DNA from: a virus
DNA length: 42,135 nt
IMG/VR virus record: IMGVR_UViG_3300026319_000002
Location: 1-42,135 of that record
Reading direction: 5' to 3' (one strand)
Shown: in pieces, positions 1 through 14,138 of the stretch
Layout of the letters: the number at the start of each line of letters is the position of its first letter
Numbering within the stretch: the stretch's first letter is position 1
Program-made: the position numbers and the translations under genes
The notes under the pieces: model-generated
The model's database searches: none
What the model was told of the DNA's origin: nothing
What the model saw: the letters and a program-made list of their open reading frames with translations, nothing else

Positions 1-127
1 CCCGGTCACCGGCGCGGATCCTCGGAAAATTCTCCGGCCGAAACGCGAAAATGATCGAGGGCGCCAGATCCCGCAATAACACACAGAGCCGGGTAAAATC
101 GGCCTCGCTCAAATACCGGGCGTAAGG
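1..127. repeat. Left copy of 127-bp terminal direct repeat
   Basis: Bases 1-127 are identical to 42009-42135. A perfect end repeat of exactly 127 bases is what an assembler using a 127-base k-mer leaves on a circular contig, so the non-redundant genome is 42,008 bp. One gene reads through the join without interruption, which supports circular closure. A true short terminal repeat of a linear virion genome is the alternative, but the lambda-type terminase gives it no special support. Confidence 0.95.
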
Positions 128-823
128 GATCAGGCTCCGCGCCTTGGTATGCACCAAATCGCCTGGCCGGATTAAGATCGAATGATCGAGTAAGAAAAAA
201 GTCACCCGGCGAATCTCGACCATGGTCAAATCGTATAGTTGCCGGCTCCGCGAATGGCTCAAATCAAAGACTTGCATACAACTGTTGGCCGCTTCATGCC
301 GGCGCAAAGAGAACGCGCAATCCAAAAAACTCTGTACCAGCCAGCGTTGGGCTGCGAGCTCAGGCTCTAACGTACACAGGGTCCTAATTCCCAAAACTCG
401 CCACTCGAGCTCTTCCTTGAAATCTTTCCAGGCATCGTTGGTGGCCGGGTCGCGCTTATCCAAATCCAGTTCGGTGTAGAGCGAACGATAACGCCGGCTT
501 TCTTGGACCACATTGGCCAGGACCGATTTGATTACTTTAGAGACAAAACTGTAAGCGGTTCCTCGGGTTGCATCAAAACAGTGCAAACTGGTTGCTAATT
601 TGATCTGGATCCGGCTCACCAGTTCGGCCATTTCCGCGTATTGCGTCGTTTTCAGCCCTTGGATAATCGAGCGGGCCAGCGGCACCGAATATTGCAGCAG
701 TTCTTCCAGTGAACCGTTCCGGTTTTTTTGCCAATCTAAAATCAGAGCTTGAGCGTAATCGCTCCTAAAACAATAAATCGCCCCCTCCGGATGATGCCGG
801 GTCGGAAGAAAGGGTGCCGCCAT
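1..823 (-). CDS. Sigma-70-like regulator, N-terminal part (gene crosses the contig ends)
   Basis: This ORF starts at ATG 823 and stays open to base 1. In the circle it continues from 42008 to a TGA at 41938-41940, giving 297 aa. Residues 40-112 resemble sigma region 2: a helical stretch with SVPLARSI, then CFDATRGTAYSFVSKVIKSV, close to the usual FDP-RG-F-YL-I pattern. Residues about 172-208 resemble a region 4 helix-turn-helix (RRHEAANSCMQVFDLSHSRS followed by VEIRRV). The last 90 residues are not recognised. It lies 18 bp after the large terminase gene and overlaps the next gene by one base (TGATG), so it belongs to the packaging/head transcript. I infer a diverged sigma or sigma-like transcription factor that could drive late genes. 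The fold is inferred from motif pattern only, and another helical DNA-binding protein is possible. Confidence 0.6.
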   Translation of the reverse strand, partial: MAAPFLPTRHHPEGAIYCFRSDYAQALILDWQKNRNGSLEELLQYSVPLARSIIQGLKTTQYAEMAELVSRIQIKLATSLHCFDATRGTAYSFVSKVIKSVLANVVQESRRYRSLYTELDLDKRDPATNDAWKDFKEELEWRVLGIRTLCTLEPELAAQRWLVQSFLDCAFSLRRHEAANSCMQVFDLSHSRSRQLYDLTMVEIRRVTFFLLDHSILIRPGDLVHTKARSLIPYARYLSEADFTRLCVLLRDLAPSIIFAFRPENFPRIRAGDR

Positions 824-841
824 GGCCACAGAGCTCGCTCG

Positions 842-2782
842 CTAATAGGCACTGGACCAACCGCGCTGCCGGCCAAAATTAGTCGGTCGCACCCGTTTCG
901 CTCCTTCCGCTGGTGGAGGTGGGGTCAGGATACTGGCCAGATCATCCTTTTTTTCCGGCGCTGGCGCGGCCGGCTTCGAGCGCCAATCGTTCAGCGGCGC
1001 TCGGTCCAAATTCTTTTGGATCGCCCCATAGTCCGGATCCAAGATTTCTTTGGCCGCCAGCGCATAAACCCGGGCATCAAGCGCTTCATTGTGGGCGCCG
1101 CCAGTCTGTAAATCAAAATAACGGACCTGGCGCCCTTCCACGAAACTGGTCCGCATTGATTCGCTTTCCAATTGCTTGAAGTAGGTCGAATCATAGCCCG
1201 CTTGGCTATTTAGCGGAAAATGCTGGAACCCGGGCCCATGTTCCACCAGCCGTAACCGGGAATAAAGGCCTTCCTTGGCTCCGTCCACTTTCAAAATAAA
1301 TAGCCGCGGGTTGCGGCCGGCGCTCCGATTAACCCAGTTCGATACGTACCCGCGTTGACCCCGAGAAGCGTACACCAGCCGTGGCGCGCACCGGCGCACA
1401 TAAGCATAGATTTGTTCGGGTTTATTGGCCGCATCAATACAGGCACAAGCCGGCGCTAGCCAATGACCACTCGGATGTTTCCAACGCTTTAAAAGCCATT
1501 GGTCGAGTTCACCGAATAGTTGCGGCGTATCGGTGTTTCCGCGGAATATTTTATATTCGATCCCCCAGGTTTCTTCCAAAGCCCCGATCCCTAATATTTC
1601 CGCTTCAATCCGGTCTTGTTGCACATCCGCTCCCACCACTAAAAAAAACACGCCTTTTGGCAAAATCATTTCGCCATTCTCGTCCTCGTCATAAATCTCC
1701 CGCCGTGCGTAAAGCATTTCTGGTTCCGGTGGTTTATCGCTTTCTTCTTCGTAACTCTCGGCAAATACCGTATTCACAAATGTCCGTAACACTTCCGGCC
1801 CCTTGTGTTTGGCTTCCAAAAATTCGGCCGCCCATTGATGGAGCCGGTTCCGATATTTGCGTTTGCCGCGTAACAGACATAAAAACGCATTAGCCCAAAA
1901 TCCCGGTTTATCCTTGACCCGCGGATTGGTCGCTACCCATTTGCCCGCCATCACCATTTTCTGACGCGCCGGGTCATCATGCCGAACCCCACATTTCGGA
2001 CAAATCAGGTGCGCGGTTTCCACCAGATTTTCGCCCGCCGGTCCCTTGTCCCACCGGATATCGCGCCACATGATCACAAACTCGCCTTTGCACCCCGGGC
2101 ATTGCACAAACCATTTCCGCTGGTCAGTCTCCAAATATTCCGCCTCGATCCGGCTGAAATTTTTCACCGTCGGTGTCGAAGTATGGATCGAAAAAGAATC
2201 CGGAAAGGTTTCACTCCGGCGTTCAGCTACCGCAATCGGATCCCCTTCCTGGTGGTCCATGTTGCCGACACTTTCCGGATAGCGGTCGACCTCATCGAAA
2301 CAGGTAAACCGGCAACTGAACATGCTCAAACCAGCCGGCGAGTTCGCTCCCCCGATCACCAGAAATCCGCTGGCCCAAATCTTGAGTTGTACCGTGCTCT
2401 GGGCTTTTGGCCCCTTGCCCTCGAACACCATGTCGCTCACCCCCGGCGTATCCTCGAGCATCGGCCCGAGTTTCAGCTTACTCCAGGAATGCGCCATCGC
2501 GATCGTTGGTAACACCATCATTATCCCGCCCGCTTGTAGCTCGATCACCCAGCCAATCAGAATGGTGATGATCTCCGTTTTTCCTAAGACCTGGCTCGCC
2601 CACATCAGGGTCATCGAGTTATAGCGCTCGTCGAGCACCAAATCCATCGGCTCGATCTGATAGGGAAATGGCACAAACCGCCCCGGGCGCGCACTCAAGC
2701 CTTGTCGTAATGTCCGGCGCCGCTTTGCCCACTGGCTCGGGGCCAAGCGTTCCGGGGCCTTAAAGACATCAAAAGCGACCAA
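842..2782 (-). CDS. Terminase large subunit, lambda GpA type
   Basis: ATPase and nuclease that cuts and pumps phage DNA into the prohead. At 646 aa it matches the GpA family length. Visible features are an adenine-motif region near PYQIEPMDLV (about 40-48), a deviant Walker A around SQVLGKTE, a Walker B CFDEVD, two CxxC pairs (CPGC and CPKC) forming the family's zinc site, and nuclease acids in VVGADVQQDR and ALDARVYAL. The frame has no ATG before residue 46, yet the conserved N-terminus (APSQWAKR) lies earlier. It therefore starts at TTG 2782, 11 nt after the small subunit stop and without a good ribosome site, or it is reached by -1 slippage on the A9 run upstream. GpA terminases usually cut at cos sites, which suggests cohesive ends here. 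Confidence 0.93.
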   Translation of the reverse strand: MVAFDVFKAPERLAPSQWAKRRRTLRQGLSARPGRFVPFPYQIEPMDLVLDERYNSMTLMWASQVLGKTEIITILIGWVIELQAGGIMMVLPTIAMAHSWSKLKLGPMLEDTPGVSDMVFEGKGPKAQSTVQLKIWASGFLVIGGANSPAGLSMFSCRFTCFDEVDRYPESVGNMDHQEGDPIAVAERRSETFPDSFSIHTSTPTVKNFSRIEAEYLETDQRKWFVQCPGCKGEFVIMWRDIRWDKGPAGENLVETAHLICPKCGVRHDDPARQKMVMAGKWVATNPRVKDKPGFWANAFLCLLRGKRKYRNRLHQWAAEFLEAKHKGPEVLRTFVNTVFAESYEEESDKPPEPEMLYARREIYDEDENGEMILPKGVFFLVVGADVQQDRIEAEILGIGALEETWGIEYKIFRGNTDTPQLFGELDQWLLKRWKHPSGHWLAPACACIDAANKPEQIYAYVRRCAPRLVYASRGQRGYVSNWVNRSAGRNPRLFILKVDGAKEGLYSRLRLVEHGPGFQHFPLNSQAGYDSTYFKQLESESMRTSFVEGRQVRYFDLQTGGAHNEALDARVYALAAKEILDPDYGAIQKNLDRAPLNDWRSKPAAPAPEKKDDLASILTPPPPAEGAKRVRPTNFGRQRGWSSAY

Positions 2783-2793
2783 TAGCCCAGGCG

Positions 2794-3078
2794 CTATTTT
2801 GCCCTTGAGTTTTTTTTTAGCCCGGCCAGATCGTTGATCAGTTCGTCTTGTTCGCTCGGCGCTAAGCTCGATTGCAATATCTTTTGCCGCACTGTGCCAA
2901 AGATCTTTTCCATTCGAGCCTTGATTTCCTCGACCGAAATCAAATGACCACGCCGTTCCACCAAATCCAATTCCAAGCTATCCGCGCGCGCTTTTTCCAA
3001 ACGCACCCGATGCGCTAACGCCGGATGAACTTTCTTTATTCGTGGGCTGATGTCTGTCGCCGCACCCATCGCGAACAT
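2794..3078 (-). CDS. Terminase small subunit-like protein (Nu1 C-terminal type)
   Basis: This 94-aa protein has the charged helical pattern found in the C-terminal half of Nu1-type small terminases: EKARADSLELDLVERRGHLI, then VEEIKARMEKIFGTVRQKIL. No winged-helix DNA-binding part precedes it, so DNA recognition must come from elsewhere. It sits directly before the large subunit, as expected. ATG codons at 3078 and 3069 are both possible starts. Near its 3' end it carries nine A's in its coding sense (CTA AAA AAA AAC), a strong slippery context whose -1 frame leads into the large terminase. Confidence 0.7.
   Translation of the reverse strand: MFAMGAATDISPRIKKVHPALAHRVRLEKARADSLELDLVERRGHLISVEEIKARMEKIFGTVRQKILQSSLAPSEQDELINDLAGLKKNSRAK
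2810..2818 (-). other. A9 slippery run between terS and terL frames
   Basis: The minus strand reads CTA AAA AAA AAC in the small-terminase frame and so contains the classic heptamer A-AAA-AAC. The -1 frame is open upstream and downstream and is the large-terminase frame. Slippage here would give a TerS-TerL fusion through LKGKIAPGLLVAFDV. The alternative is initiation at TTG 2782. No downstream stimulatory structure was modelled. Confidence 0.4.
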
Positions 3079-3179
3079 ATCATCGCATCAAGATTATTTT
3101 ATTCGATCTTTTTCGCTAAAAATTGAGGATCGGCGGAGCCCGTCTTGCAAAATGCGAGAAACAGGACCCGGGCGGGCAC

Positions 3180-3317
3180 CTATCGAATGGTGGTCTGAAT
3201 CAGCACCGCACAATTGGTGGAATCAAGGGCGGAACCAATTTGAGCTTGGTAACGATCATCTTCATTGTTCGGTTGTTCATCAGATCCAGTAATTATCAAA
3301 AATCCATCTACGCTCAT
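3180..3317 (-). CDS. Small hypothetical protein (45 aa)
   Basis: ATG at 3317 overlaps the TGA of the preceding gene (ATGA) and the ORF ends with TAG at 3180. The product begins MSVDGFLIITGSDEQPN and is acidic with no recognisable domain. The overlap with its upstream neighbour is the main reason to accept it as a translated gene. About 100 bp without an ORF separate it from the small terminase. Confidence 0.5.
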   Translation of the reverse strand: MSVDGFLIITGSDEQPNNEDDRYQAQIGSALDSTNCAVLIQTTIR

Positions 3318-3637
3318 GGCGGCAATTCCTTATTTGCTGTCGGTGGAAAGGTATCGATCATTTGTGCGACAAACTCTTCCCGGCTTAGATGTCCAGCTCT
3401 AAAACGTAATTTCAGCGACAAGCGTTCTTTTTCCACGGCTTCCAATTTTTGGGCGGCCCCTTGCAGCCAACCAGCCACGAAACAATCGCGAGCAACGAAA
3501 TCATCATAGCGCGAGTCCATAGCGCTAGCTTGGTAAAGTTTATAGGCATGATAAATGTCATCGTTATTCATCGGTGCCAATTTCTTATTCTGGGGTAGGC
3601 ATGGCAGTATGGTTTCATAAGGACTGATCACACTCAT
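3314..3637 (-). CDS. Hypothetical protein at head of packaging operon
   Basis: A 107-aa protein of unknown function. It is helical and charged, with an aromatic-rich centre (DFVARDCFVAGWLQGAAQKL) and a tail AGHLSREEFVAQMIDTFPP. A later ATG at 3571 (MNNDDIYHAYKLYQ) may be the real start, because the stretch before it looks unlike the rest and contains an inverted repeat. It is the first gene after the 61-bp dyad that separates the early operon from the packaging genes, so a promoter for the latter probably lies just upstream. Confidence 0.6.
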   Translation of the reverse strand: MSVISPYETILPCLPQNKKLAPMNNDDIYHAYKLYQASAMDSRYDDFVARDCFVAGWLQGAAQKLEAVEKERLSLKLRFRAGHLSREEFVAQMIDTFPPTANKELPP

Positions 3638-3655
3638 TGATTAATCCTGATCAGT
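3623..3655. promoter_or_regulatory. 8-bp inverted repeat, possible operator
   Basis: ACTGATCA at 3623-3630 and TGATCAGT at 3648-3655 form a perfect inverted repeat with a 17-bp spacer. It straddles the first possible start (3637) of the gene that opens the packaging operon. It may be a binding site for a dimeric regulator at the late promoter. No clear -35/-10 pair was seen. Confidence 0.35.
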
Positions 3656-3680
3656 GCACAGTCCACCTTAAGTAAAGGAT

Positions 3681-3741
3681 GGAGTGATGGACTGAGCGCG
3701 TGCGTTAGTATATACGCACGCGCTCAGTCCTCCATCACTCC
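3681..3741. repeat. 61-bp near-perfect dyad between early and packaging operons
   Basis: Left arm 3681-3705 pairs with right arm 3714-3741 (25 of 25 left-arm bases, with a 3-base bulge in the right arm) around an 8-base AT-rich centre. It starts 15 bp beyond the stop of the RepA-like gene, in the direction of transcription. As RNA it would be a very stable hairpin, but no U-tract follows, so a simple intrinsic terminator is not certain. A replication, packaging or recombinase site is equally possible. Confidence 0.6.
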
Positions 3742-3756
3742 ACCGCTTACATACGT

Positions 3757-4977
3757 TCATGGACTAATCACCCCATTTAGCAAATCGTCACTTCCGCGAT
3801 GGATCATTTTGATTCGAGTCGCTCGTCCCGAGCCCCGAATCTCTTGAACGTGAATGAGCTGATCCTCCAAGGCGAGATCGATCGCGATTTTCGCCGAACG
3901 CTGAGTTGCGCCTTTCTCTTCGAGTGCTTTTCGTAAACGCGTCATTGAGATTCCATCCAGGACGGGAACGGCTTGGACGATTGTTTCAGATTCAATGGAG
4001 TGGCGATTGGTGCCGGTAGCGGCCGCAATCTCGGCCGCTTCGGCTTTTGACCAAAGCAAAACCCCGGGCCGAGTATCGTGTTTAAAATAATTGGCTTTTT
4101 CTTCCCAGCCAATCCGTTGCCCGCGCTTGGCCGCAATAAATTTGTAAATTCCGCTTTCGCCGACCGGTTCCATGGCCAGAATTGCGCGAGCCCAATTGGT
4201 GAGCACCGAGGCACCAGCACCCGAATACATCCAATCCATAGTCGACCATTTATCGATTCGAGATCGAAAATTGGTTTTTGGCGTGTGGTGAACGCCTAAT
4301 CCGGCGCAATTGTGGCGGTTGAGCATTGCTTGGAGATCACGGCGCAGAAAAAGTGAATTGGCTTCATCGTCCATGATGCTGGCGCCGAGATATGCGGTGT
4401 AGGGGTTAAGAATTAAAAGATCACAGGGTCGTTGATCCAAAATATTGTCAATCGCACAAATTGCATCTAAGCCCACTTGATCATTGATGGTTTCAATCCA
4501 AGAATTTTTTCCAATGAGCTCGAGCTCTGAGCCGGTAAAATGCAAATGGTCGATTACTCGAGCCATGTCGCTCAAATCCGCATCGTCGTCCTCGGCTTGA
4601 ATTAAATTGATTCGAATCGGTCGGGCCGGAACAATATCGAAACATTCCCGACCGCAGCACCAGCACACCGTGGCTTGCATTACGGCAGTGGATTTGCCTT
4701 GCCCGCTGGGTGCCACGAAAAACATGCCCGAACGCCGGGTTAAATATCGGTTTCCGAGTAAGCAGCTGCCTGGCTCGATCGGTTTGTGGACGTAACTAAT
4801 TGCTGAACCGCCAATCAAATGACGTGTCGATCGATTAATGGGCTCACTGTGCGGATCGCGCCCATTGCCAGAAATCCGATGGGTTTCATCACCCGGCTCG
4901 TAAAAACCGGAAAGCCCAAGTAAATCGAGATCGGCTGCCAATTCTCCATTTGAAAAATCGTCAATGCTGTCTTTCAT
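3757..4977 (-). CDS. RepA-like RecA-fold NTPase/helicase
   Basis: A 406-aa protein with a RecA-type NTPase core. Walker A is FFVAPSGQGKST and Walker B is CDLLILNPYTAYLG, with Asn in place of the usual Asp. A sensor-type stretch GLGVHHTPKT is followed by the SGAGASVLTNWARAIL block typical of phage AAA/RepA-like ATPases. A winged-helix-like C-terminus (residues about 320-400) follows. It probably acts as replicative helicase or helicase loader. ATG 4977 is chosen over an in-frame codon at 5049 because it overlaps the stop of the Lar-like gene (ATGA). It is the last gene of the early operon. Confidence 0.8.
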   Translation of the reverse strand: MKDSIDDFSNGELAADLDLLGLSGFYEPGDETHRISGNGRDPHSEPINRSTRHLIGGSAISYVHKPIEPGSCLLGNRYLTRRSGMFFVAPSGQGKSTAVMQATVCWCCGRECFDIVPARPIRINLIQAEDDDADLSDMARVIDHLHFTGSELELIGKNSWIETINDQVGLDAICAIDNILDQRPCDLLILNPYTAYLGASIMDDEANSLFLRRDLQAMLNRHNCAGLGVHHTPKTNFRSRIDKWSTMDWMYSGAGASVLTNWARAILAMEPVGESGIYKFIAAKRGQRIGWEEKANYFKHDTRPGVLLWSKAEAAEIAAATGTNRHSIESETIVQAVPVLDGISMTRLRKALEEKGATQRSAKIAIDLALEDQLIHVQEIRGSGRATRIKMIHRGSDDLLNGVISP

Positions 4978-5210
4978 GTTTTTGGTTCCACCTTGTTTGC
5001 TTTTTGCTTTTGGAAAAAAATCCAAGTGTTGATCAACCAACTGTTCCACTCAATCATTGCTTGTTCCTTGCTCTCGGCCTGGGGCCCGCGGGCGCCACAT
5101 CCGCATTCGCCAAACCAGATCTCACCCCAGGCATCGACCCGGTCACATCGAACGACGCGTTCGCTGGTTTCATTGCGACACCATGGGCAAAGGGTGAGCT
5201 CGGCTTTCAT
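4974..5210 (-). CDS. Lar-like restriction alleviation zinc protein
   Basis: A 78-aa protein with the Lar pattern: CPWC near the N-terminus, a second cysteine cluster ECGCGARGPQAESKEQA, then the hallmark MIEWNSW. Lar of the Rac prophage reduces type I restriction by favouring modification. Many phage homologues exist with unproven roles, so anti-restriction here is inferred. Start and stop overlap both neighbours by ATGA, placing it in the early operon where a counter-defence would be useful. Confidence 0.75.
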   Translation of the reverse strand: MKAELTLCPWCRNETSERVVRCDRVDAWGEIWFGECGCGARGPQAESKEQAMIEWNSWLINTWIFFQKQKANKVEPKT

Positions 5211-6394
5211 TGGGTGAGCGCTTTTGCTTTTTCCGCGCGCCGGGTCCGCTCGGCTTTGGTGATTTTGGAAATATAAGGCGCGTCGTTCGTCGTTCCGATG
5301 AGCTGGCCCATGAATGAGGCGAATGCCTCTTCGCCCTCTTCGCCTTTGAGATTGCCCTTAGCCAAAAAGCGCTTCTCAAGCCGGGAAACACTCCAGCGAG
5401 CGCAATCGTCGAATTCTTCGCCCGACAAAAGCGGAGCCAAAGTTTGGCGAGCAGCCGACAAATTTGTGATCCATCGGTTGCGCTTGCCTTCATGCAAATA
5501 ATGGCCCTCGAGGGCTTCGGGCTCGGTAGCTAAAACATTTTTGTAACCGTCTTCGATCGAATCCAAAAGCCCGCGGACTAGCGCGATATTGTCGATGATT
5601 TTATCCCCATCTTTGCCCCGCGGAAAATTGGCCAGGTTGGCGTTGAAAGCTTTGGCGACCCGGTAGGTTTGACTGATAAAATCCCGCGCCGCCTTGCACC
5701 GGACCCGAGCTGGGCAATAGCGGCACCACTCGCCGGCATTAAAAGTCTCGGTGTCCCAGCTCAAGCGATCGACAATCTGCAAAACGTGGCTTTCGGCTGC
5801 CGGCAGGGTCGATTCATCATAGCGCACAAATTCGCGCTCCCAGCTCACCCACGGCTCGACAATCGAGGCTTGGATTTCTTTCAAACTGCCGAAGGCACTC
5901 TTGAGAAGCACCGTTTCGACGCGCAATTGCCGATTGTCGGGAAGAGGTTCCGGCTCGATTCGCCCGGTTTTATAATTGCAATTCCAGGCCCGGTCTTTTT
6001 TGCGGTCGATAATAACCACATCGATTTGACCGCTAAAAACCGGAACGATCCCGCGCCGATACCAGAAGCGCTTTTCCCGAAGGATCGCCAAATTGGGCGG
6101 TGGATCATCGACGTCGATCAAACTGCCAAACCATTGCCCAATCAGTTCGTCGCGCAGTTTTTCGCAAGCCCCGGCCGTGAAAAGTTCATCGCTTGAGAGT
6201 TCTAGCTTTTCGCGCTCGGTGCGCCTGGCCCCGAGCCAGGCGTGAATTTTGGTGCCGCTGGACCCGTATTTATTCGGTAAATCTAACAACAACCCTTGGT
6301 CCCGTAATTGGCCGATAAAATGATGGGATCCCGGACACTGTTCGAGTCGGTACATTGCCGAAGCCGAGGGGAGGCCGCGCCGTTCATCATTCAT
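5207..6394 (-). CDS. PD-(D/E)XK-like (DUF2800/RecB-type) nuclease
   Basis: A 395-aa protein starting MNDERRGLPSASAMYRLEQC, the common N-terminus of phage PD-(D/E)XK exonuclease-like proteins. The core motif region is GQIDVVIIDRKK, then WNCNYKTG, then NRQLRVETVLL. The acidic residue of the D/E-X-K motif reads Asn (NYK), so activity may be reduced or the acid supplied elsewhere. Cysteines in EWCRYCPARVRC (about residue 220) resemble the Fe-S cluster of Cas4/AddB-type enzymes. It follows a RecT-like gene with ATGA overlap, which suggests an exonuclease/annealase recombination pair. The ORF extends upstream to 6433, but ATG 6394 fits the overlap. Confidence 0.75.
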   Translation of the reverse strand: MNDERRGLPSASAMYRLEQCPGSHHFIGQLRDQGLLLDLPNKYGSSGTKIHAWLGARRTEREKLELSSDELFTAGACEKLRDELIGQWFGSLIDVDDPPPNLAILREKRFWYRRGIVPVFSGQIDVVIIDRKKDRAWNCNYKTGRIEPEPLPDNRQLRVETVLLKSAFGSLKEIQASIVEPWVSWEREFVRYDESTLPAAESHVLQIVDRLSWDTETFNAGEWCRYCPARVRCKAARDFISQTYRVAKAFNANLANFPRGKDGDKIIDNIALVRGLLDSIEDGYKNVLATEPEALEGHYLHEGKRNRWITNLSAARQTLAPLLSGEEFDDCARWSVSRLEKRFLAKGNLKGEEGEEAFASFMGQLIGTTNDAPYISKITKAERTRRAEKAKALTQ

Positions 6395-7431
6395 ACGACT
6401 AAATCCTGGAAAGTTTGCAGAATGACCGGCCAATCATCCAAGGCCAGTTTCAACGTCGAATCCGGAATTTCTTCCATCGGGATTTCCGCTTCCAAGAGCG
6501 CAAAGCGCCGCAAGAGAAGTACAAAATCTTGCGGGCTCCGTTTGGCTTCGGTTAATTTCGCTTTGAGTTGTTCGACTAATGGCCGCGGTGGCTCAGATTT
6601 GGCTTCAGGCGCCGATTTCGCTGAGCCCCCTAGCTCGACCAAGGTCGGGTCATCATCCGGGCCGCTCGGCGTTCCTGGCGCTTCCTTGATGAGTTCTGGC
6701 ATCGGGCCTGGCTCTTTGTCTTTTTTGGGCCGGCCTGGCCAGCGTTTCGGAGTCTCGGCCGGAGCTGGCACGAGCGGCAAATTCGGTTCAACAATTCGGC
6801 CCTCGGCAGTTTTAGCTCGGCTAAAACCTGGCTCCTCACCGAAATCATCATTGAGTTCGCCAATGGCGCAACCTTTCAAGACATCGCCAAAATTGTCGCG
6901 CAAATTAAAGGCCCGGGCCCGGAAAAGGAGCATTCGTTGAGGTGCGGTCACCCATGGGGTTTTTTTGTTCCCATCTTTACTCATCTTGCCCCAAAGCTCA
7001 GCCCGTTTCGCATCGGCCACCGAATAGCTTGTCACCATTGGCTTAGCGGCACCTTTGCGTTTGGTTGTGACTACGCACCGGAAATCGTCATCATATTCTT
7101 TGCCCAAATATTCCTGTTCGTAATTCTCGAGTAACCCGCTTTGCCGAACTAACGCCAGCGGCATATCACCAAAGATAGTTGCCCGATTATTAACTACATA
7201 GGTTGACGCCAATGCTGCCATGGGCGACATCCCGACTTCGTACCCGTTTGCGATAATAACAAAACAATCAGTTTCATTGAACCCTTGCGGGCACAGTTGC
7301 GACAGCGCGACCGCTTTCGCGAATCGGAAGACATCATCCATTGATTCAAGCTTGAATCCGTTCCGGCCGATGGCGACTGGCCCTAGGCGGGCCATTAGTG
7401 AGGCTTCTTGATTACTGGTTTCTGTAGTCAT
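6391..7431 (-). CDS. RecT-like single-strand annealing protein
   Basis: A 346-aa protein with the RecT-family order: GYEVGMSPMAALASTYVVNN, FGDMPLALVRQSG, a phage-type SYSVADAKRAELWGK, and TPWVTAPQRMLLFRARAFNL with RDNFGDVLKG. The C-terminal third is acidic and proline-rich and likely flexible. It anneals complementary strands in phage recombination and recombination-dependent replication, probably with the downstream nuclease. A possible start at 7431 overlaps the preceding 57-aa gene by 20 bp. Confidence 0.82.
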   Translation of the reverse strand: MTTETSNQEASLMARLGPVAIGRNGFKLESMDDVFRFAKAVALSQLCPQGFNETDCFVIIANGYEVGMSPMAALASTYVVNNRATIFGDMPLALVRQSGLLENYEQEYLGKEYDDDFRCVVTTKRKGAAKPMVTSYSVADAKRAELWGKMSKDGNKKTPWVTAPQRMLLFRARAFNLRDNFGDVLKGCAIGELNDDFGEEPGFSRAKTAEGRIVEPNLPLVPAPAETPKRWPGRPKKDKEPGPMPELIKEAPGTPSGPDDDPTLVELGGSAKSAPEAKSEPPRPLVEQLKAKLTEAKRSPQDFVLLLRRFALLEAEIPMEEIPDSTLKLALDDWPVILQTFQDLVV

Positions 7432-7585
7432 TGGTTAAGCTCATTTCCGGATTCATAGTTGCTTTGTGGTTATAATTGCGGACCACTTCCCATAATCGGC
7501 GAACAAATTCTCGGGTCTTTTCGTTGTAGCGATAATTGGGATCAAAGTTTTGCCAGAAAATAGCGAACTCTTCGTCGGTGTTCAT
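7412..7585 (-). CDS. Small hypothetical protein (57 aa)
   Basis: ATG at 7585 lies 4 bp after the GHKL gene stop, and TAA at 7412 falls inside the start of the RecT-like gene. The product is helical with many aromatic residues (EEFAIFWQNFDPNYRYN, then FVRRLWEVVRNYN). No family is recognised. The tight packing between two operon genes supports translation. Confidence 0.6.
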   Translation of the reverse strand: MNTDEEFAIFWQNFDPNYRYNEKTREFVRRLWEVVRNYNHKATMNPEMSLTNDYRNQ

Positions 7586-7589
7586 AATA

Positions 7590-9050
7590 TTATGGTCGAT
7601 TAATGCGAATTGCTGCGACGACCTCCGTTGCCATCGCGCTAAAAAGTTCAGAAGCTCGATCGAAATTGTTAAGTTCTCCCGATCCCAATGTTGATTGTTC
7701 AGCTTTTTCGATATCGATGAACCACTTCAAAATCACGGCAAAATATGCTGTGACGTTCATCAACCACGGAATTTCTTTAATACAATCAGTGAATCGGTGG
7801 TCAGTATTTATGCAGACATTAATTCCGGCAACGTGACGGGCGTCACCATTAACGTAAACGTTAAATAATGGTTGGAGAGGACCTAACTCCCGATATTCGA
7901 CATTAATTACTGGCGGATTTTTCGCTTTCCCATGGGCTTTGCCGGATTGAAGCGGATCAACCCGATTAACATTTCTCGTCTTTGGTTCGCCAGGCGAATT
8001 TCCTTCCTCTCCGTTTCCAATACCCGGGCGTTTGCCTCCAGGTTTCCTAATCTCCTTACCTTGCGCTTGAGGCATCAAACGTTTAGCAAAGTGTTTTTCC
8101 AAGAATTTTGCGACCACCGGCGCACCAATAGGAAAATTGACAATGTTCGCTTCTTTTTTGAGATCGCGAAGGACCGGTTCAATATGCGTAAAAAGATGAC
8201 GCGCCAATTTACGTAATTCGTTTAACCCGTTCTTATATTTGTTCAATTTCCATCGAACCGGGGCGACATCATAAACGATAATCTCACCGTAAAATCGCTC
8301 CGGTGAATAATTCTCAAAGCCGGTCTCAGTAAAGCCAGTAACGATTCGTCGATGACCATTATAGATGACCGTCCAGCCGCATTTTCGGCTCGTGTCGTTA
8401 GCCGGTAAGACGCCGGCTCGCCATTCGTAAAGTTTGCTATGCCATTCACCATCACCAGAGCGCGCATTAATCAGTTCGACTGCAGTTGGCGCTTCTAACT
8501 GGGTGCCATTAATTCGAATACCGAAGCCGGATCGTAATGAATGCTCAAATAAATAAGGAAGTTCTTTCATGGCGCGAGCCAGATCATGAAATGCGTCTTC
8601 ACGAAATTCGCGGAAAACTACCGTCGTTCCGATTTCCGCTTGGATGCATTCAATTTCCTCATATAAAAACTGTCCGCTTTCGATCATGCCGTCCCAATCA
8701 GCACGTTGTGCCGTTCCATTCGTTTGCTTCGCTGTCTTCGTGTGCGCTTCCATAATGGAAACAAATGGCATGGAGCCTGTCTTGACACCAACGCCAAAGA
8801 AGCCGATTTTTTCGACGTCTTGTTCTGGCTCAACCGCTAGGTCAACGATACGTCGCGCGTCTGAGCAACCTTGTCCGTTATCAGATGCGCGCATTTCATC
8901 AGGTCCAATTGTTATATCAAGCAAGCCCGCCTTCGCATACTTGCTATTATCGACGATCTCAGCCAAAAACCGGGCCGTGGTCATATCGCTCTCATGAATA
9001 AGACTGAGCAACAGTCGTGTGCCCGGTGGGCGATTCTCTAGCTTTCCCAT
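7590..9050 (-). CDS. GHKL (Hsp90/MutL-type) ATPase
   Basis: A 486-aa protein with all ATP-binding boxes of the GHKL superfamily: N-box FLAEIVDNS (E31, D34, N35), G1 box ASDNGQG (57-61), and G2 box GFFGVGVKTG (83-92). The middle (about 180-300) would correspond to the transducer-type domain. A charged Gly/Lys/Pro-rich linker lies near 340-390, followed by a C-terminal domain ending in a helical segment. It has no kinase, gyrase B or MutL endonuclease signature, so it is closest to generic Hsp90-like or MORC-like phage ATPases. The ParB-domain gene ends 6 bp upstream, so the two proteins are probably made together. A DNA-clamp or remodelling role in replication or recombination is inferred. A defence or anti-defence role is also possible. 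Confidence 0.8.
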   Translation of the reverse strand: MGKLENRPPGTRLLLSLIHESDMTTARFLAEIVDNSKYAKAGLLDITIGPDEMRASDNGQGCSDARRIVDLAVEPEQDVEKIGFFGVGVKTGSMPFVSIMEAHTKTAKQTNGTAQRADWDGMIESGQFLYEEIECIQAEIGTTVVFREFREDAFHDLARAMKELPYLFEHSLRSGFGIRINGTQLEAPTAVELINARSGDGEWHSKLYEWRAGVLPANDTSRKCGWTVIYNGHRRIVTGFTETGFENYSPERFYGEIIVYDVAPVRWKLNKYKNGLNELRKLARHLFTHIEPVLRDLKKEANIVNFPIGAPVVAKFLEKHFAKRLMPQAQGKEIRKPGGKRPGIGNGEEGNSPGEPKTRNVNRVDPLQSGKAHGKAKNPPVINVEYRELGPLQPLFNVYVNGDARHVAGINVCINTDHRFTDCIKEIPWLMNVTAYFAVILKWFIDIEKAEQSTLGSGELNNFDRASELFSAMATEVVAAIRINRP

Positions 9051-9056
9051 AAAATT

Positions 9057-9932
9057 TTAGCAGTTGAACTTTTCGAGGTCGGAAAGGATCGCGTCTTGCG
9101 CGAGCTCATGAATCAAAGCCGCAAATTCCGGCGGAAAGTTACTTAGAAACTTTTGCCAATATTTCGGCCAGGTTCGTTCGAATTGTTTTTTCGTAGATTC
9201 ATTGTTCTGGTTTTGGCTACTGCGCAATGTTTTGCCTTTAACTAATGGTTGAGATTCTTTTTCGTTAGTCTTTTGCGAAACCAGATCATTACCTTGTTTC
9301 AACGTTAATTGACCATTCATCACTTGCGTTCTTACCTCGGGATCCTTATCAACGGCGACCGCATAAGTAGCCTGACGCCGTGATCCACCGCCGATCGCCG
9401 CGATTTGACCGATCGTCGACTGTGCGTGCATCTTTGTTAGATCGCGTGGTTCAGATGGTGAACCACATTTGGGGTTCACCTGCTCCTTTGGCTTTCCAGT
9501 AGGATTTCCGGATTGTCCTTTCTGAAACTTACTAACTCTCTTTTTTAGTTCGTTTGTCATAGTGATCTTTCCAAGAAAGTCCAGTGCAACTAACATGCGT
9601 TGGGCCGGAGTGAGACTTCGCCGATTAAAATTTCGGTCGAAGATAAACTGTTCATCACTCGGGATGCTTTCATGCCGATTAACTTTGCAAAACTCCTCGA
9701 TCGACATAATAACCGGAGTAATTTGCAATTCACAACAGGCCCGGTAACGATGGCGCCCATCGAGAACTAGACCCTTAGAATTAACAACGATCGGCTCAAG
9801 CTGACCATTTGCCCGAATACTCTCCTTAAGCTCATCGTACTCTGTTTCCGTAAGAGCCGGGAAAGCTTGGCAAAGTGGGTGAATTTTTGCCGTCTTCCAT
9901 TGCGACATCAAATCAATAACAATTTGCACCAT
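9057..9932 (-). CDS. ParB N-terminal-domain DNA-binding protein
   Basis: A 291-aa protein. Residues about 18-90 form a ParB/sulfiredoxin-like domain: HPLCQAFPALTETEYDELKE, IRANGQLEPIVV, then LDGRHRYRACCEL at the nucleotide-binding motif. A helical region RRSLTPAQRMLVALDFL and a predicted helix-turn-helix near STIGQIAAIGGGSRRQATYA follow, with a charged Gln/Asn-rich linker and helical C-terminus. No ParA is encoded nearby, and the partner gene is a GHKL ATPase instead. Chromosomal ParB proteins are CTP-dependent DNA clamps, but whether this one binds CTP cannot be told. In-frame ATGs at 9932 and 9908 are both possible starts. Confidence 0.8.
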   Translation of the reverse strand: MVQIVIDLMSQWKTAKIHPLCQAFPALTETEYDELKESIRANGQLEPIVVNSKGLVLDGRHRYRACCELQITPVIMSIEEFCKVNRHESIPSDEQFIFDRNFNRRSLTPAQRMLVALDFLGKITMTNELKKRVSKFQKGQSGNPTGKPKEQVNPKCGSPSEPRDLTKMHAQSTIGQIAAIGGGSRRQATYAVAVDKDPEVRTQVMNGQLTLKQGNDLVSQKTNEKESQPLVKGKTLRSSQNQNNESTKKQFERTWPKYWQKFLSNFPPEFAALIHELAQDAILSDLEKFNC

Positions 9933-9943
9933 AATCTATATTG

Positions 9944-10096
9944 TTAAATTCGCTCTTGAATTCGCCGACCGTTACTATCCCGGGCCGGCACGATTAACGG
10001 TTTGGGTTTGCGCGGCCAAACGTAGACAACCAAAATAAGCAAAACGCTAATTAGAATCGCCTCGAGCCCACAAAGAAAAATCAAAATCTCATTCAT
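9944..10096 (-). CDS. Small single-pass membrane protein (50 aa)
   Basis: ATG at 10096 overlaps the VRR-NUC stop (ATGA) and TAA lies at 9944, 11 bp before the ParB-domain gene. Residues 4-27 are hydrophobic (ILIFLCGLEAILISVLLILV), followed by a basic, cytosolic-looking tail with WPRKPKPL. The position within the early operon is clear, but the function is not recognised. Confidence 0.6.
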   Translation of the reverse strand: MNEILIFLCGLEAILISVLLILVVYVWPRKPKPLIVPARDSNGRRIQERI

Positions 10097-10494
10097 AATC
10101 CAAACCATTGACTAATTCGCCGGCTTCCGTCGGCGTAATCTTCGACAATAAATGTCTCGTTTCCGCATTCTCTTAGCCAAGCAATGTAATCATATTGATC
10201 CCGGCTAAGTTTATTGTTGCGGACCTTCAATTCCACATGCAGACATCGATTATCTTTAGTTAACAAAAGATCGGGATGTCCTTTTGGAAGTCTCGATCGC
10301 CGAGTAGGATCACTACCAACGGCATTGATGCGATGACGCAAACAGAAGCCGATTATGGAATCGCGCAATTTCTTTTCATCATCCTTTTGCCGTTTAGCTA
10401 AGCGCTGTTCAAATGTGATGAAGCGCTTTCGTTCGGCCGGCTCCGCAATCTTGCCAATGATATGATCCGGTAAAGCTTGAGAATCGAGGCCCAT
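10093..10494 (-). CDS. VRR-NUC domain nuclease
   Basis: A 133-aa protein. The second half has the VRR-NUC pattern: KGHPDLLL, then CLHVELKV with the catalytic E-x-K, then LSRDQYDYIAWLRECGNETF. The N-terminus is a basic helical segment. Phage VRR-NUC proteins are small structure-specific or Holliday-junction-type nucleases, and here it would serve replication or recombination. It opens the run of coupled early genes, 9 bp after the excisionase-like gene. Confidence 0.8.
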   Translation of the reverse strand: MGLDSQALPDHIIGKIAEPAERKRFITFEQRLAKRQKDDEKKLRDSIIGFCLRHRINAVGSDPTRRSRLPKGHPDLLLTKDNRCLHVELKVRNNKLSRDQYDYIAWLRECGNETFIVEDYADGSRRISQWFGL

Positions 10495-10503
10495 AGCTAT
10501 ATT

Positions 10504-10716
10504 TTAGCGGGTGCGGTTTTTGTACCATTCTTCGAGCTCAGCTCGTTTGAATTTCCATTGGCCTTGTTTGCCCGGAGTTTTCCAGGCGATCCCCTTCAAA
10601 TAACCGAGCCGCGCCCAGCGTTGGAGAGTTTGCGGAGTTACATCGAGAGCGTGGGCTGCTTTCAATATTCCGACCGTCGGGGTTTGGCTTAATGTGCCTA
10701 AAAGCGTTTGAACCAT
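10504..10716 (-). CDS. Excisionase-like winged helix-turn-helix protein
   Basis: A 70-aa MerR/excisionase-type DNA-binding protein. The core is VGILKAAHALDVTPQTLQRW, then ARLGYLKGIAW and QWKFKRAELEEWYKN, the usual HTH_17 layout of helix-turn-helix, wing and LxxW helix. ATG 10716 is preferred because the ORF upstream of it, to 10800, only reads through the 21-bp repeats. It may act as excisionase or as early regulator. The nearest integrase gene is 1.5 kb upstream with other genes between. Confidence 0.7.
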   Translation of the reverse strand: MVQTLLGTLSQTPTVGILKAAHALDVTPQTLQRWARLGYLKGIAWKTPGKQGQWKFKRAELEEWYKNRTR

Positions 10717-10786
10717 ATCTTGCCGACCTGATTCGATCGGTAGAATCAGGATAAGGCACTTTTGATTTTGGGAAGGGCAAGCCCCC

Positions 10787-10849
10787 GACTTAGGACGCAA
10801 ACGGGGTGATTTAGGACGCTAGCGGAGTGATTTAGGACGAAATCGGCCT
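10787..10849. repeat. Three 21-bp tandem repeats (iteron-like)
   Basis: Three adjacent units at 10787, 10808 and 10829 share GAYTTAGGACG followed by a CGG-containing tail (17/21 and 16/21 identity between neighbours). The 21-bp period is two DNA turns, so a bound protein would sit on one face. The third unit and part of the second encode the end of the upstream helix-turn-helix protein (RPKSLR). Upstream of the excisionase start these could be operators or iterons. Confidence 0.65.
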
Positions 10850-11055
10850 TTTGCTTTTTCCTTTTCGAACCAGTTTCTGACCGTATCGGGTTCGACGCCG
10901 AATTCATTCGCTATGGTTTTGATTTCGAGATCGGTAACATCATCAGCAAGCGCAAAAGCCAAAAGCCGAGCGATGCGACCAGGCTTGAGATAACTGCGAG
11001 CTTTCTTCTTATCTTCAGCGCTAGCTAACGCTAATAGCTTTTCGAAAGCATCCAT
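10819..11055 (-). CDS. Small helix-turn-helix protein
   Basis: A 78-aa protein with a clear helix-turn-helix at residues about 43-66: LEIKTIANEFGVEPDTVRNW followed by FEKEKAKG. The N-terminal half is helical and basic. It is the first gene of the early operon and is preceded by palindromes, which fits an autoregulated early regulator or repressor. Its last codons are built from the 21-bp repeat. The exact family is not recognised. Confidence 0.65.
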   Translation of the reverse strand: MDAFEKLLALASAEDKKKARSYLKPGRIARLLAFALADDVTDLEIKTIANEFGVEPDTVRNWFEKEKAKGRFRPKSLR

Positions 11056-11056
11056 C

Positions 11057-11066
11057 GAAAGCTTTC
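11057..11066. promoter_or_regulatory. 10-bp palindrome at early operon start
   Basis: The perfect palindrome GAAAGCTTTC lies 1 bp upstream of the start codon of the first early gene and covers its ribosome-binding region. It could be an operator or simply a translation-control site. Confidence 0.3.
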
Positions 11067-11102
11067 TTGAAAATAGTCGAAAACCTTACAACCCAATCAG
11101 GC

Positions 11103-11123
11103 GTACAAAACTTTATTTTGTAC
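11103..11123. promoter_or_regulatory. Inverted repeat upstream of early operon
   Basis: GTACAAAA (11103-11110) and TTTTGTAC (11116-11123) are perfect 8-bp arms around a 5-base AT spacer. The repeat sits about 50 bp upstream of the helix-turn-helix gene, where its promoter should be, and could be the operator for early transcription. As RNA on the plus strand it would also form a hairpin. Confidence 0.45.
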
Positions 11124-11124
11124 T

Positions 11125-11231
11125 TGCGGCCGGTAACGGAAGAATGTTACTAAAAAGAGCGTTACACGCTCCTTAAAAGGCTTAATTAAAGCGACCGGCT
11201 GAAATTACAGTTTCAGCCGGTTCTCTTTTTT
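11125..11231 (+). ncRNA. Candidate structured small RNA
   Basis: No ORF is seen here, but the plus strand carries successive hairpins: GTAAC/GTTAC (11133-11150), GAGCG/CGCTC around TTACA (11157-11171), then a strong terminator. A terminator with no upstream plus-strand gene implies a plus-strand transcript starting nearby. It could be a small RNA opposed to the early operon start or the leader of a short antisense transcript. No promoter was securely identified. Confidence 0.3.
11194..11231 (+). terminator. Strong intrinsic terminator
   Basis: ACCGGCTGAAA (11194-11204) pairs perfectly with TTTCAGCCGGT (11211-11221) across a 6-base loop, followed by TCTCTTTTTTT. This is a textbook rho-independent terminator for plus-strand transcription. 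No plus-strand gene lies immediately before it. Confidence 0.8.
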
Positions 11232-11544
11232 TCGGTGTTTAAGGTGGGCGAATGCCCGGCGAGAGTTCAAACGCAACCCGGGTTAAGGCGATAGCGCGAT
11301 CCGATTCCATAAAAACCTTTGAGAATGAAGTTGACGAGCAATCAAAACGGTATTTTTCAAAGAGCTATTTGGCAAGCCAAGAATTGGCACGACTCGCCCA
11401 TAGTTGTGAATAACTCGGTGAATAATTTCTGAATAAATTTGCCCCTCCCTGTCGAACTAGGTGTGAATAAACCCGGTCCCTGAGAATCAGGTTTTTTTCC
11501 AAAAACCGGAATCTTTCCATTGCATAGCTCTAAATCTTGCCGAA
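11232..11544. other. Non-coding region with DnaA-box-like repeats
   Basis: No ORF is convincing in this stretch. Its notable content is a set of repeats at 11405-11470: TGTGAATAA at 11405-11413 and 11462-11470 (complement TTATTCACA, matching the DnaA box TTATNCACA), a one-mismatch copy at 11417-11425 and a two-mismatch copy at 11428-11436. The copies start 12, 11 and 34 bp apart, near whole helical turns, and lie in AT-rich sequence. This is a candidate replication origin or iteron site. Further left (11232-11400) nothing clear is seen. Confidence 0.45.
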
Positions 11545-11862
11545 TTGCCGCAATGCGAGATTTCAGTAATGTTCATTAGGGCAAAGAAAGTGCATTCTAG
11601 TAAATATAGGCGCAAGATGCCCGGTCAAAATGTCGGAAGCTTCCAAATGACCGATGAGGAACGAATACGATTTGATCGCGCCCTTAGGGATCGAGGTTAC
11701 CCGAATCGGCCCCATTTTTTGCGAGCGGTTGCCATGCAATTTATTGCCCAGGTCGAAAGCGGCGAATACCCGGATTGGCCGATCCGGTTTGTGATGCGGC
11801 CCGATGTCGAAATAAAAAAGGCGCCAGCCAAACGCGGGCGCCCTCGGAAAAAGAAAGATTAA
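11545..11862 (+). CDS. Small basic DNA-binding protein, ribbon-helix-helix-like
   Basis: A plus-strand ORF of 105 aa. The core FQMTDEERIRFDRALRDRGY, then RPHFLRAVAMQFIAQVESG, has the spacing of a CopG/ribbon-helix-helix strand plus two helices. The C-terminus ends in an AT-hook-like KRGRPRKKK. Starts at 11545, 11569 (MFIRAKK) or 11617 (MPGQNVGSF) are possible, and the last gives an 81-aa protein. Its stop overlaps the stop of the convergent gene (TTAA). As the only plus-strand regulator near the lysogeny region, it could be a repressor. Confidence 0.6.
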   Translation: MPQCEISVMFIRAKKVHSSKYRRKMPGQNVGSFQMTDEERIRFDRALRDRGYPNRPHFLRAVAMQFIAQVESGEYPDWPIRFVMRPDVEIKKAPAKRGRPRKKKD

Positions 11863-12284
11863 CTCTTGAGCGGGTCCGGTAAAGCACGCTCTTTCCAGCT
11901 GCCGGCCGCACAATAGCGATTCGCTTTGGAGCAGATCTCGAGCGCTTCCTCTCTGGAGTAGCGACCAGCGGCGGCGAGGCTTTCGGTATAACCCCAACGG
12001 CCCGGAGCCCACCACGCAGCGTGTTCTTCGCTCCAGATGACCCAATCTTTAGCTTGTTCATTCATGCGGCCTCGATCTAGCGCTTCGCGTTCTAGATTCA
12101 CTAACTCCCGCAGGCGCTTGATTTCTTCTGCGTCGTTCTTGATTCGCGCTTCTAACCCGTCGGTCTCTATCAGCGCACGACGGGCGCATTCTTGCCAGCC
12201 AGCTTGATAGGATACCCAAACATACTTGGCGTCGTAGACGATTGCGCACGCCTCATCGCTCAGCGGATCCTGTTTTCGGTTCAT
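11859..12284 (-). CDS. Conserved phage-type hypothetical protein
   Basis: A 141-aa protein. The N-terminus contains a coiled-coil-like stretch (IKNDAEEIKRLRELVNLERE). The C-terminal half carries the pattern IWSEEHAAWWAPGRWGYTES with GRYSREEALEIC, a motif seen in many small phage and mobile-element proteins of unknown function. Its ATG overlaps the integrase stop (ATGA), so it is translated with the integrase. Confidence 0.65.
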   Translation of the reverse strand: MNRKQDPLSDEACAIVYDAKYVWVSYQAGWQECARRALIETDGLEARIKNDAEEIKRLRELVNLEREALDRGRMNEQAKDWVIWSEEHAAWWAPGRWGYTESLAAAGRYSREEALEICSKANRYCAAGSWKERALPDPLKS

Positions 12285-13471
12285 GCGGCCTCAATCTGTA
12301 GGATCTTGCCCGCGGCCGGCTCCGGATTCGGGCATTGGTTGAACCATTCCCGGCCGGTTTCGGCTTCTAAGATATCCCCAACATAGAACCGCTTCACGGT
12401 GCTTTCGAGATCGCCCATCGCTTTGGCGACGTCGCCCATCGACCGGAACGTCAGCGCATAAGTGGCGTAGGAATTGCGCAGCGCGTTCTCTGGCATCTTG
12501 ACCTTGATTTTGTGGAAAAGCTCGGCTTGCAGCCGTTGGAGCGTGCTTTGACTGATCTCGATCATCGGACCCGCCGGCTTGGCTACCATTTCCAACCATT
12601 GCCTGGCCGCCGGTTCGAGCGGAATAAGCCGTTTCCGATCTTTGGCCTGGGTTTGCTTGGCGACTTCGTCCCGAACGTAAATCAAATTTTTCTGCCAAAG
12701 AATATCGGTCCATTCAATCACTGAATCGCCCGGGTGCGAGGAAATGATTTCACAGCGGCGCATGCCGGCCAGCCCGCGGAGTACGTAGAATGGCAAAAGC
12801 CGTTTGAAATAATCCGTTGGCTGCTTCTGTTCCAGACCGGCACATACAAATAAAATACGGCGAAAAATATCGATCTGGAGATATTCGTCATTTACTCCCC
12901 ACCGATCGGTTGAGGGAACGTCATCCATTAAATTGGTCGCTAGGTAGCCCGAGGTTTTGAGCCAACCAATGAAGGGCGAAATATTCTTGCGGTGACTCTT
13001 GCGGGTGGATCCGGCTTTGATCGGCGCTAAATAATCTCTCAGCTTTTGGGCGGTGAGATCAGTGCACTGAATCGGGCCCATCGCTTCAGAAAGTCGAAGA
13101 ATGCACCGGCGTCGATCGGCGATCGTGCGCGGATTTAGTTCCTCATGCTGGCAGTGAATATAAATGAAATCGCTAGCCGCTTCTTCCAGGGTCGCCTTTT
13201 TGTTGACGCTCAAAATCGTGCTCCGGTAATGCCGGCCGGCCTCAATCATTTGATCGAGAGATTCAAAAGTGCGTTCCGCGGTTTCGAGAAAATGCTGCCG
13301 TTCTGAGTTGATTTGAATCAAACGTTGCGACGGGATTACAAATTCCCGGATCTTCGCTTCGGCATCCTCTTTCTTTTTGAAATAAAGTTGCTGTTCTCGC
13401 CCGGTTTGGCTGAGCCGCGCCGGCACAATAACCCGGTAACAATTTCGGGACGGATAATATTTAGCTTTCAT
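12281..13471 (-). CDS. Tyrosine-family site-specific integrase
   Basis: A 396-aa integrase. The N-terminal region (1-60) is basic and probably binds arm sites, residues about 95-185 form the SAM-like core-binding domain, and 200-370 the catalytic domain. The box I Arg lies in GLAGMRRCEI (238/239), the box II Arg is R332 in LRNSYATYAL, and the nucleophile is probably Y363 in KRFYVGDI. The histidine before R332 is Asn329 and the second His/Trp position is Asp354, so both usual histidines are replaced. Such deviation occurs in integrases of some environmental phyla. An attP-like tRNA fragment lies 160 bp upstream. It establishes and maintains lysogeny. Confidence 0.85.
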   Translation of the reverse strand: MKAKYYPSRNCYRVIVPARLSQTGREQQLYFKKKEDAEAKIREFVIPSQRLIQINSERQHFLETAERTFESLDQMIEAGRHYRSTILSVNKKATLEEAASDFIYIHCQHEELNPRTIADRRRCILRLSEAMGPIQCTDLTAQKLRDYLAPIKAGSTRKSHRKNISPFIGWLKTSGYLATNLMDDVPSTDRWGVNDEYLQIDIFRRILFVCAGLEQKQPTDYFKRLLPFYVLRGLAGMRRCEIISSHPGDSVIEWTDILWQKNLIYVRDEVAKQTQAKDRKRLIPLEPAARQWLEMVAKPAGPMIEISQSTLQRLQAELFHKIKVKMPENALRNSYATYALTFRSMGDVAKAMGDLESTVKRFYVGDILEAETGREWFNQCPNPEPAAGKILQIEAA

Positions 13472-13473
13472 TC

Positions 13474-13481
13474 TGTAACAG
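13474..13481. promoter_or_regulatory. Possible integrase arm-type site at int start
   Basis: TGTAACAG, 3 bp upstream of the integrase start, resembles the two TGTAACGG copies near 13740-13758. It could be an arm-type binding site and allow autoregulation, but this rests on similarity of only seven bases. Confidence 0.25.
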
Positions 13482-13630
13482 ACTTTTTAAATCGAGGCGC
13501 TATGAATTGCTCAGTTGTACCAGTTTTGCAAGCCTTATTTACACCTGTTTGATACTCTTTAATCCTTTCGATGTCCTGGAATTTGAGAGGGTTTCTCCTC
13601 TGCCGATCGGCTTCTAGACTTGATCTCCTA

Positions 13631-13680
13631 GGGAACTACCGCGCTTGGATTCGAACCAAGATAGGCGCCTCCAAAGGGCA
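13631..13680 (-). other. Candidate attP core: tRNA 3'-end fragment
   Basis: The minus strand contains CTTGG-TTCGAAT-CCAAG (13660-13644), a perfect T-arm with the canonical TTCGAAT loop. It is followed by CGCGGTAG, suitable as the 3' half of an acceptor stem, and preceded by a segment that could be variable loop and anticodon arm. No D-arm or 5' acceptor half is present, so this is a fragment and not a tRNA gene. A tRNA 3' end beside an integrase is the usual attP layout. The host tRNA identity cannot be fixed from this alone. Confidence 0.5.
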
Positions 13681-13739
13681 ATCGCAAAATTGTTCTAAGT
13701 CGTTGATAATGAACACACGAGCTTTGCGCTCATGTAATC

Positions 13740-13759
13740 TGTAACGGTTTTGTAACGGT
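13740..13759. repeat. Helically phased direct repeats, possible integrase arm sites
   Basis: TGTAACGG occurs at 13740-13747 and 13751-13758, 11 bp apart (one DNA turn), about 70 bp from the attP-like core. The rest of the 370-bp region between the integrase gene and the next plus-strand gene shows no ORF worth naming. Confidence 0.4.
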
Positions 13760-13842
13760 GTTTTATGCGAAAATTTTGCCAAATTCCCTTTTCAACCACC
13801 ACAAAAAGTGCAATGCATTTGTTTTGAAAGATTTTACTCGAA

Positions 13843-14121: not shown

Positions 14122-14138
14122 AAGGAAGGAAATGAACA

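Follow-up and report, generated by a model that had tools for sequence, protein, structure and literature searches.

A sigma-70-like gene directly behind the large terminase gene of a temperate-type phage, a candidate late-gene sigma factor

Introduction

The closest described counterparts of the gene reported here, a sigma-like gene (SLP) in the IMG/VR virus record IMGVR_UViG_3300026319_000002, are found in phage T4 and in temperate phages. The entire record, 42,135 bp, is the stretch analysed and is called the window below. In T4 late transcription, gp55 acts together with the coactivator gp33 and the sliding clamp gp45. The T4 late sigma factor gp55 is described as forming a split sigma with gp33, a mimic of sigma region 4; it has a conserved N-terminal segment before region 2 and carries a C-terminal hydrophobic-acidic epitope that binds the sliding clamp (PMC2988020). 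It is also reported to bind gp17, the T4 large terminase subunit (TerL), and in extracts that lack gp55 the packaging of concatemers falls about 100-fold (PMC3012670, PMC9026906). Temperate phages also encode sigma factors, such as the sporulation-like sigmas described in WBeta and others (PMC9429907). The late regulators of staphylococcal phages are described as preceding the late promoter (PMC13123087).

SLP lies between the TerL gene and the head genes of the window phage. Its sequence and the predicted fold of a relative suggest that it is probably a phage-encoded factor of the sigma-70 family, most likely one for late genes.

Results

SLP on the closed circle

The window begins and ends with the same 127 bp (positions 1-127 equal 42009-42135 exactly), and a longer overlap is absent. 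Closing the sequence at this repeat gives a circle of 42,008 bp, on which SLP is a minus-strand open reading frame (ORF) that runs from 823 to 1 and then from 42008 to 41938, with an ATG start, 297 codons and a TGA stop. A GTG codon is present in the same frame at 829.

42009-42135, no strand: terminal repeat, the overlap that closes the circle (identity to 1-127)
1-823, minus strand: 5' part of SLP, ATG at 823-821, codons 1-274 plus one base (translation and relatives)
41938-42008, minus strand: 3' part of SLP once the circle is closed, stop TGA at 41940-41938 (translation)

The linear record splits the gene over two fragments, codons 1-274 and codons 233-297. The initial annotation had described a 297-codon gene that appears when the circle is closed, and our analysis agrees with it: the frame is open through the exact repeat and is uninterrupted on single contigs of relatives (L008, L087/L088, L115 and L116). 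The final 23 codons past the first fragment also align with these proteins (ending ...LRLVLWGHPEARPVF in the window and ...IELILFGDPDAVPLF in relatives). The uninterrupted genes and the aligned last codons support the join in the window, which rests on the terminal repeat and is confirmed at the level of sequence. Since the overlap is exactly 127 bases long, like an assembler k-mer, the contig ends are probably not the physical ends of the genome.

Sigma-70 region 2

That residues ~20-112 of SLP form a sigma-70 region 2 is well supported by family matches, by profile alignment and by the predicted fold.

488-766, minus strand: sigma-70 region 2 domain, residues ~20-112 (Pfam match at residues 46-105, predicted fold of L008, hhalign)

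The Pfam family Sigma70_r2 matched all three sequences of the first SLP alignment (best E value 1.1e-5) and four of the seven in the last one (the window, L008, L088 and L089). When 14 viral records were searched in six frames, this family was found in three, exactly at SLP in the three that carry the gene, and L008 scored 28.1 bits, above the curated cut-off of 24. The NCBIfam family sigma70-ECF matched three out of four SLP members (best E 2.3e-4), and L008 matched PHROG sigma families, that of the late sigma gp55 included, at E 7e-4 to 0.011. A profile search of the PDB gave sigma factors in 15 of its 16 matches up to E 10, the best at E 0.053. Upon hhalign comparison, region 2 of SLP aligned with five E. 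coli sigmas at E 3.2e-7, and none of 120 column shuffles was as good.

The fold was taken from a model of L008, with L008 and not the window protein as the query and the window protein in its alignment. The mean predicted local distance difference test (pLDDT) score of this model was 62, with 75-89 in the region 2 blocks. It matched region 2 of E. coli sigmaE with Z 11.8 and a root-mean-square deviation of 1.9 Å over 91 residues, and all 50 rows listed in the structure comparison were sigma or initiation-complex chains by title. A Foldseek search with the L008 model gave no E value below 0.001. The sigma region 2-like segment proposed earlier is thus borne out by the family matches, by hhalign against shuffles and by the predicted L008 fold.

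Region 2 is the part of SLP with the strongest support, and it is the region in which the core-contact surface of sigma factors is located. A protein with such a surface could act as a competitor, its region 2 occupying the polymerase clamp and displacing the host sigma, so that the host would be shut off with no new choice of promoters. The conserved helix-turn-helix (HTH) and the further C-terminal segments described below would be superfluous in such a competitor, however, and expression from a late operon would come too late for host shut-off. We consider this explanation quite improbable.

Relation to gp55

A gp55 set was made of seven proteins chosen by similarity to T4 gp55 (T4 and six others). 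The SLP profile aligned with this set at E 7.3e-8 over 99 columns, with none of 100 shuffles as good, while the identical profile aligned with E. coli sigmas at E 5.7e-7 over 69 columns. The gp55 profile itself aligned with E. coli sigmas at E 0.17. With L089 left out, the SLP values became E 1e-6 for gp55 and E 2.6e-7 for the E. coli sigmas, and the window SLP alone gave E 0.024 and 0.0023, respectively. A first gp55 comparison, at E 4e-12, was set aside because its gp55 set had partly been picked by similarity to SLP.

As E 7e-8 for gp55 is close to E 6e-7 for the bacterial sigmas, we do not claim a closer kinship of SLP to gp55. Judged from these alignments, SLP appears to stand near both, and the length of the match favours gp55. 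This match also spans the gp55 N-terminal segment before region 2, where the bacterial sigmas did not align.

Some proteins annotated as hypothetical in phages of Flavobacterium and Microcystis (L106:483-1238 and its relatives L118, L119 and L120) also resemble gp55 but are longer, with additional C-terminal sequence. Homology between the C-terminal half of SLP and the C-terminus of longer gp55-like proteins (232-256 amino acids, aa) was rejected, as 38 out of 120 shuffles aligned equally well.

The C-terminal half

Two features were placed in the C-terminal half of SLP.

191-301, minus strand: predicted HTH, residues 175-211, candidate region 4.2 (AlphaFold2 model, hhalign)
41947-41991, minus strand: conserved C-terminal tail, residues 281-295, LRLVLWGHPEARPVF (alignment of six lineages)

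The AlphaFold2 model of window residues 130-274 had a mean pLDDT of 74 and a predicted template modelling score of 0.62, and its HTH block reached pLDDT ~78-93. By hhalign, residues 182-208 align with the region 4.2 recognition helix, a score equalled by 1 of 150 shuffles and, in a second comparison, by 3 of 120. When the structure of the C-terminal half was compared, nine of the 50 rows could be recognised as sigma-70 region 4 from their title or range (Z 4.4-5.6), and unrelated rows reached Z 6.9; the top matches were Nab2, IHF and other helical chains, with the region 4 rows among them. Of the region 4-like HTH in the initial annotation, the HTH therefore stands as a predicted element, and its assignment to region 4 is plausible but weak.

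A third conserved segment and the conserved tail follow the HTH and are common to the six SLP lineages. The tail ends in a P-L/V-F-like motif in all six, and its predicted order is low (pLDDT ~30 in L008). By analogy with the gp55 epitope and with known beta-clamp motifs, our guess is that it may be a clamp-binding motif. In L089, the third segment (L089:8694-8798, residues 251-285) weakly matches phrog_836, annotated as 'late transcriptional activator' (E 0.008; 0.004 with the C-terminal part alone). Residues 223-255 of the window SLP weakly match phrog_28296, a family of 74 aa and function unknown, at E 0.011 (L088, E 0.27).

The HTH model and this phrog_836 match in one member would also suit an ordinary DNA-binding regulator, in which the sigma-like helical fold has been kept and polymerase binding lost. 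But the agreement of region 2 with sigma factors extends over its full length, in fold as well as in profile, and we give such a regulator little probability.

Relatives and selection

Neither viral contigs nor genomes nor 50,697 phage records gave a match in single-sequence searches with the window SLP. Relatives were first reached by a search of viral contigs with a TerL alignment, the best 80 of 597 loci being kept. Two of these 80 (L007 and L008) had an SLP relative, both directly downstream of TerL; at the other loci, TerL is typically followed by a gene of ~75 or 195 codons and then by the portal gene. Searches with SLP profiles added L087 (the contig of L007), L088 (same protein), L089, L115, L116 and L117. 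L115 and L116 lie outside the best 80 TerL loci, so that set is not exhaustive. SLP is carried by seven viral contigs beside the window, and six lineages are counted with the window included. A genome scan with the three-sequence SLP alignment gave no match, so that neither a host nor a prophage copy in bacteria is known.

Codon comparison of L116 with L117 gave nonsynonymous and synonymous rates of dN 0.008 and dS 0.043, and that of L008 with L115 gave dN 0.395 with synonymous sites saturated. SLP is under purifying selection, and the sequence comparisons confirm it as a genuine gene and not a chance ORF.

Place within the packaging-head operon

The genes next to SLP in the window are as follows.

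842-2782, minus strand: TerL (gpA type), directly upstream of SLP (phrog_15, Pfam GpA_ATPase and GpA_nuclease)
2794-3078, minus strand: small terminase subunit (phrog_57, E 6.8e-7)
41360-41941, minus strand: head-tail joining protein, directly downstream of SLP (phrog_5774, E 1e-17)
36060-37775, minus strand: portal protein, next after the joining gene in relatives and separated from it by an insert in the window (phrog_21)
34187-36121, minus strand: protease-major capsid fusion (phrog_617)

The genes from the small terminase to the head module all run in one direction. The gap between the TerL end and the SLP ATG is 18 bases, and the SLP stop overlaps the ATG of the joining gene (TGATG). A position after TerL and a TGATG link to the head genes had both been given in the initial annotation, and both were seen; the place behind TerL is common to five other contigs, of six relative contigs that hold both genes. 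The order TerL-SLP-joining-portal was found in L008, L087, L088, L115 and L116, and TerL-SLP-joining in the window. The L117 contig begins inside SLP. In L089, TerL (12,609-14,444 of the record) and SLP (29,811-30,764) are 15 kb apart, and SLP stands between tail fibre and baseplate hub genes, which indicates that adjacency of SLP and TerL is not obligatory.

This gene order, together with the binding of gp17 by gp55 and the packaging defect of extracts without gp55, would also be expected of a packaging partner, that is, a protein descended from a sigma factor which binds TerL and assists its loading onto DNA that is being replicated or transcribed, with little or no role at promoters. We think this rather unlikely: in L089 the gene is found 15 kb away among tail genes, and its presence in only 2 of the best 80 TerL relatives (of 597) means that a TerL of this type does not need SLP.

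The insert between the joining and portal genes (37781-41353) holds a 795-aa tail-fibre-like gene and is absent in L008, L088, L115, L116 and L117. Diverged direct repeats are present within the 795-aa gene (39302-39394 and 39992-40084).

Proposed role in late transcription

A late-gene sigma factor is the likeliest role of SLP, as suggested by its position and its similarity to gp55. In such a role, region 2 would bind to the host RNA polymerase at its clamp helices and melt a late promoter of the -10 type, and the C-terminal HTH might either recognise upstream DNA or grip the beta flap in the manner of region 4. SLP would be made alongside the packaging and head proteins, as its place between TerL and the head genes and the stop-start overlap suggest. 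The first copies may come from read-through of the early region, after which polymerase bearing SLP would start at late promoters. Since SLP lies inside the packaging-head operon, a late promoter upstream of this operon that is served by SLP would give positive feedback. The gene, its conservation and place and the homology of its region 2 are shown, and polymerase binding, late timing, feedback and the role of the HTH are all inferred.

Several results weigh against a late-gene sigma. The match of the window SLP to Pfam Sigma70_r2 (E 0.02, 14.9 bits) is below the curated cut-off of 24, this family is missed when the window alone is searched in six frames, and three of the seven members (L115, L116 and L117) have no match to it at E 1. 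Region 4 was not singled out by Pfam, by the PDB sequence search or by structure comparison of SLP. No candidate late promoter was found in a promoter scan of 1-18000, and the T4 late promoter TATAAATA is absent from the window. In addition, SLP sits within the operon that it would control, unlike the staphylococcal late regulators.

Sigma-70 consensus promoters were rarer in 1-18000 than in shuffles (7 against 17.8, standard deviation 4.8). A very strong hairpin (3636-3760, ~28 pairs, -60 kcal/mol, z -7.65) lies on the minus strand, with the AAA ATPase gene on one side and the terminase genes on the other. The boundary of early and late genes is likely to be at this place, and the hairpin could serve in regulation, in packaging or as an origin. 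An Rfam search gave no match.

Other features of the window phage

The window also encodes sheath, baseplate and tail fibre genes, and an integrase gene.

12281-13471, minus strand: integrase (phrog_1, E 1e-12)

From its contractile-tail genes and integrase, the window phage looks temperate with a contractile tail. It shares with G003 (39.9 kb) its structural module, SLP and a protein like the integrase (24%, E 3e-10), and G004 (70.5 kb) has an integrase-like protein match at E 6e-5. The only phage match of the window integrase was to an Akkermansia phage; at 21.6% it was too weak for naming the host, and that assignment was rejected. Upstream of the integrase, 13620-13670 resembles a tRNA 3' end (GGTTCGAATCC arm) when read by eye, and it is possibly an attP for integration into a tRNA gene. 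A plus-strand island (29148-30214) with small frames, membrane-like peptides included, interrupts the otherwise minus-strand tail operon and is perhaps a lysis or moron cassette. A 164-aa gene contains diverged direct repeats (15730-15802 and 15910-15982).

Comparison with known systems

SLP and gp55 are alike in being small, divergent, phage-encoded sigma-70 proteins centred on region 2. They differ in size, as SLP has 271-330 aa across the family with a long C-terminal half, and the seven T4-similar gp55 proteins have 157-222 aa. The phages differ as well: SLP phages have sizes of ~40 and ~70 kb and carry an integrase-like gene, whereas gp55 was found in records of 136-253 kb, save one 7-kb fragment, among the 24 listed of 1953. 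T4 gene 55 is not known to be adjacent to the terminase genes.

PBSX, the defective prophage of B. subtilis, has a contractile tail, and its Xpf gene presumably lies beside the terminase genes, upstream of the small terminase. Compared by description only, Xpf is like SLP a sigma-like regulator (sigma2 and sigma4) in a prophage element, but it is about 20 kDa and is listed as a group IV sigma, unlike SLP (PMC10141391). RinA/Ltr of Gram-positive phages are activators of late operons encoded next to terminase genes, as proposed for SLP, but by the description given there they do not belong to the sigma region 2 proteins (PMC13123087). With the bacterial extracytoplasmic function and group 2-3 sigmas, SLP has the fold and sequence of region 2 in common; it differs in that its region 4 is only a candidate and in its extra conserved C-terminal segment and tail.

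No description of the SLP-TerL arrangement was found in the titles and abstract openings of the papers listed by literature searches on phage sigma factors and terminases. Phage sigmas as such are known; what is new is the SLP family with its C-terminal half, its location inside the packaging-head operon, and its occurrence in small phages with an integrase. SLP also illustrates how a gene is lost in annotation, being below a family cut-off and split by contig ends in the window and without a family match in 3 of 7 members.

In T4, the late sigma contacts both the clamp of replication and the motor of packaging, and the late system consists of three separate proteins. It is conceivable, although unlikely in our estimate, that SLP is a T4 late system left unsplit in small temperate-type phages, with a gp55-like region 2, a region 4-like HTH in place of gp33 and a clamp-binding tail in one chain, late transcription being tied to replication and, via the neighbouring TerL, to packaging. 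Compared with T4, small phages that keep a sigma-like gene right behind TerL provide a compact setting for testing the coupling of late transcription and packaging.
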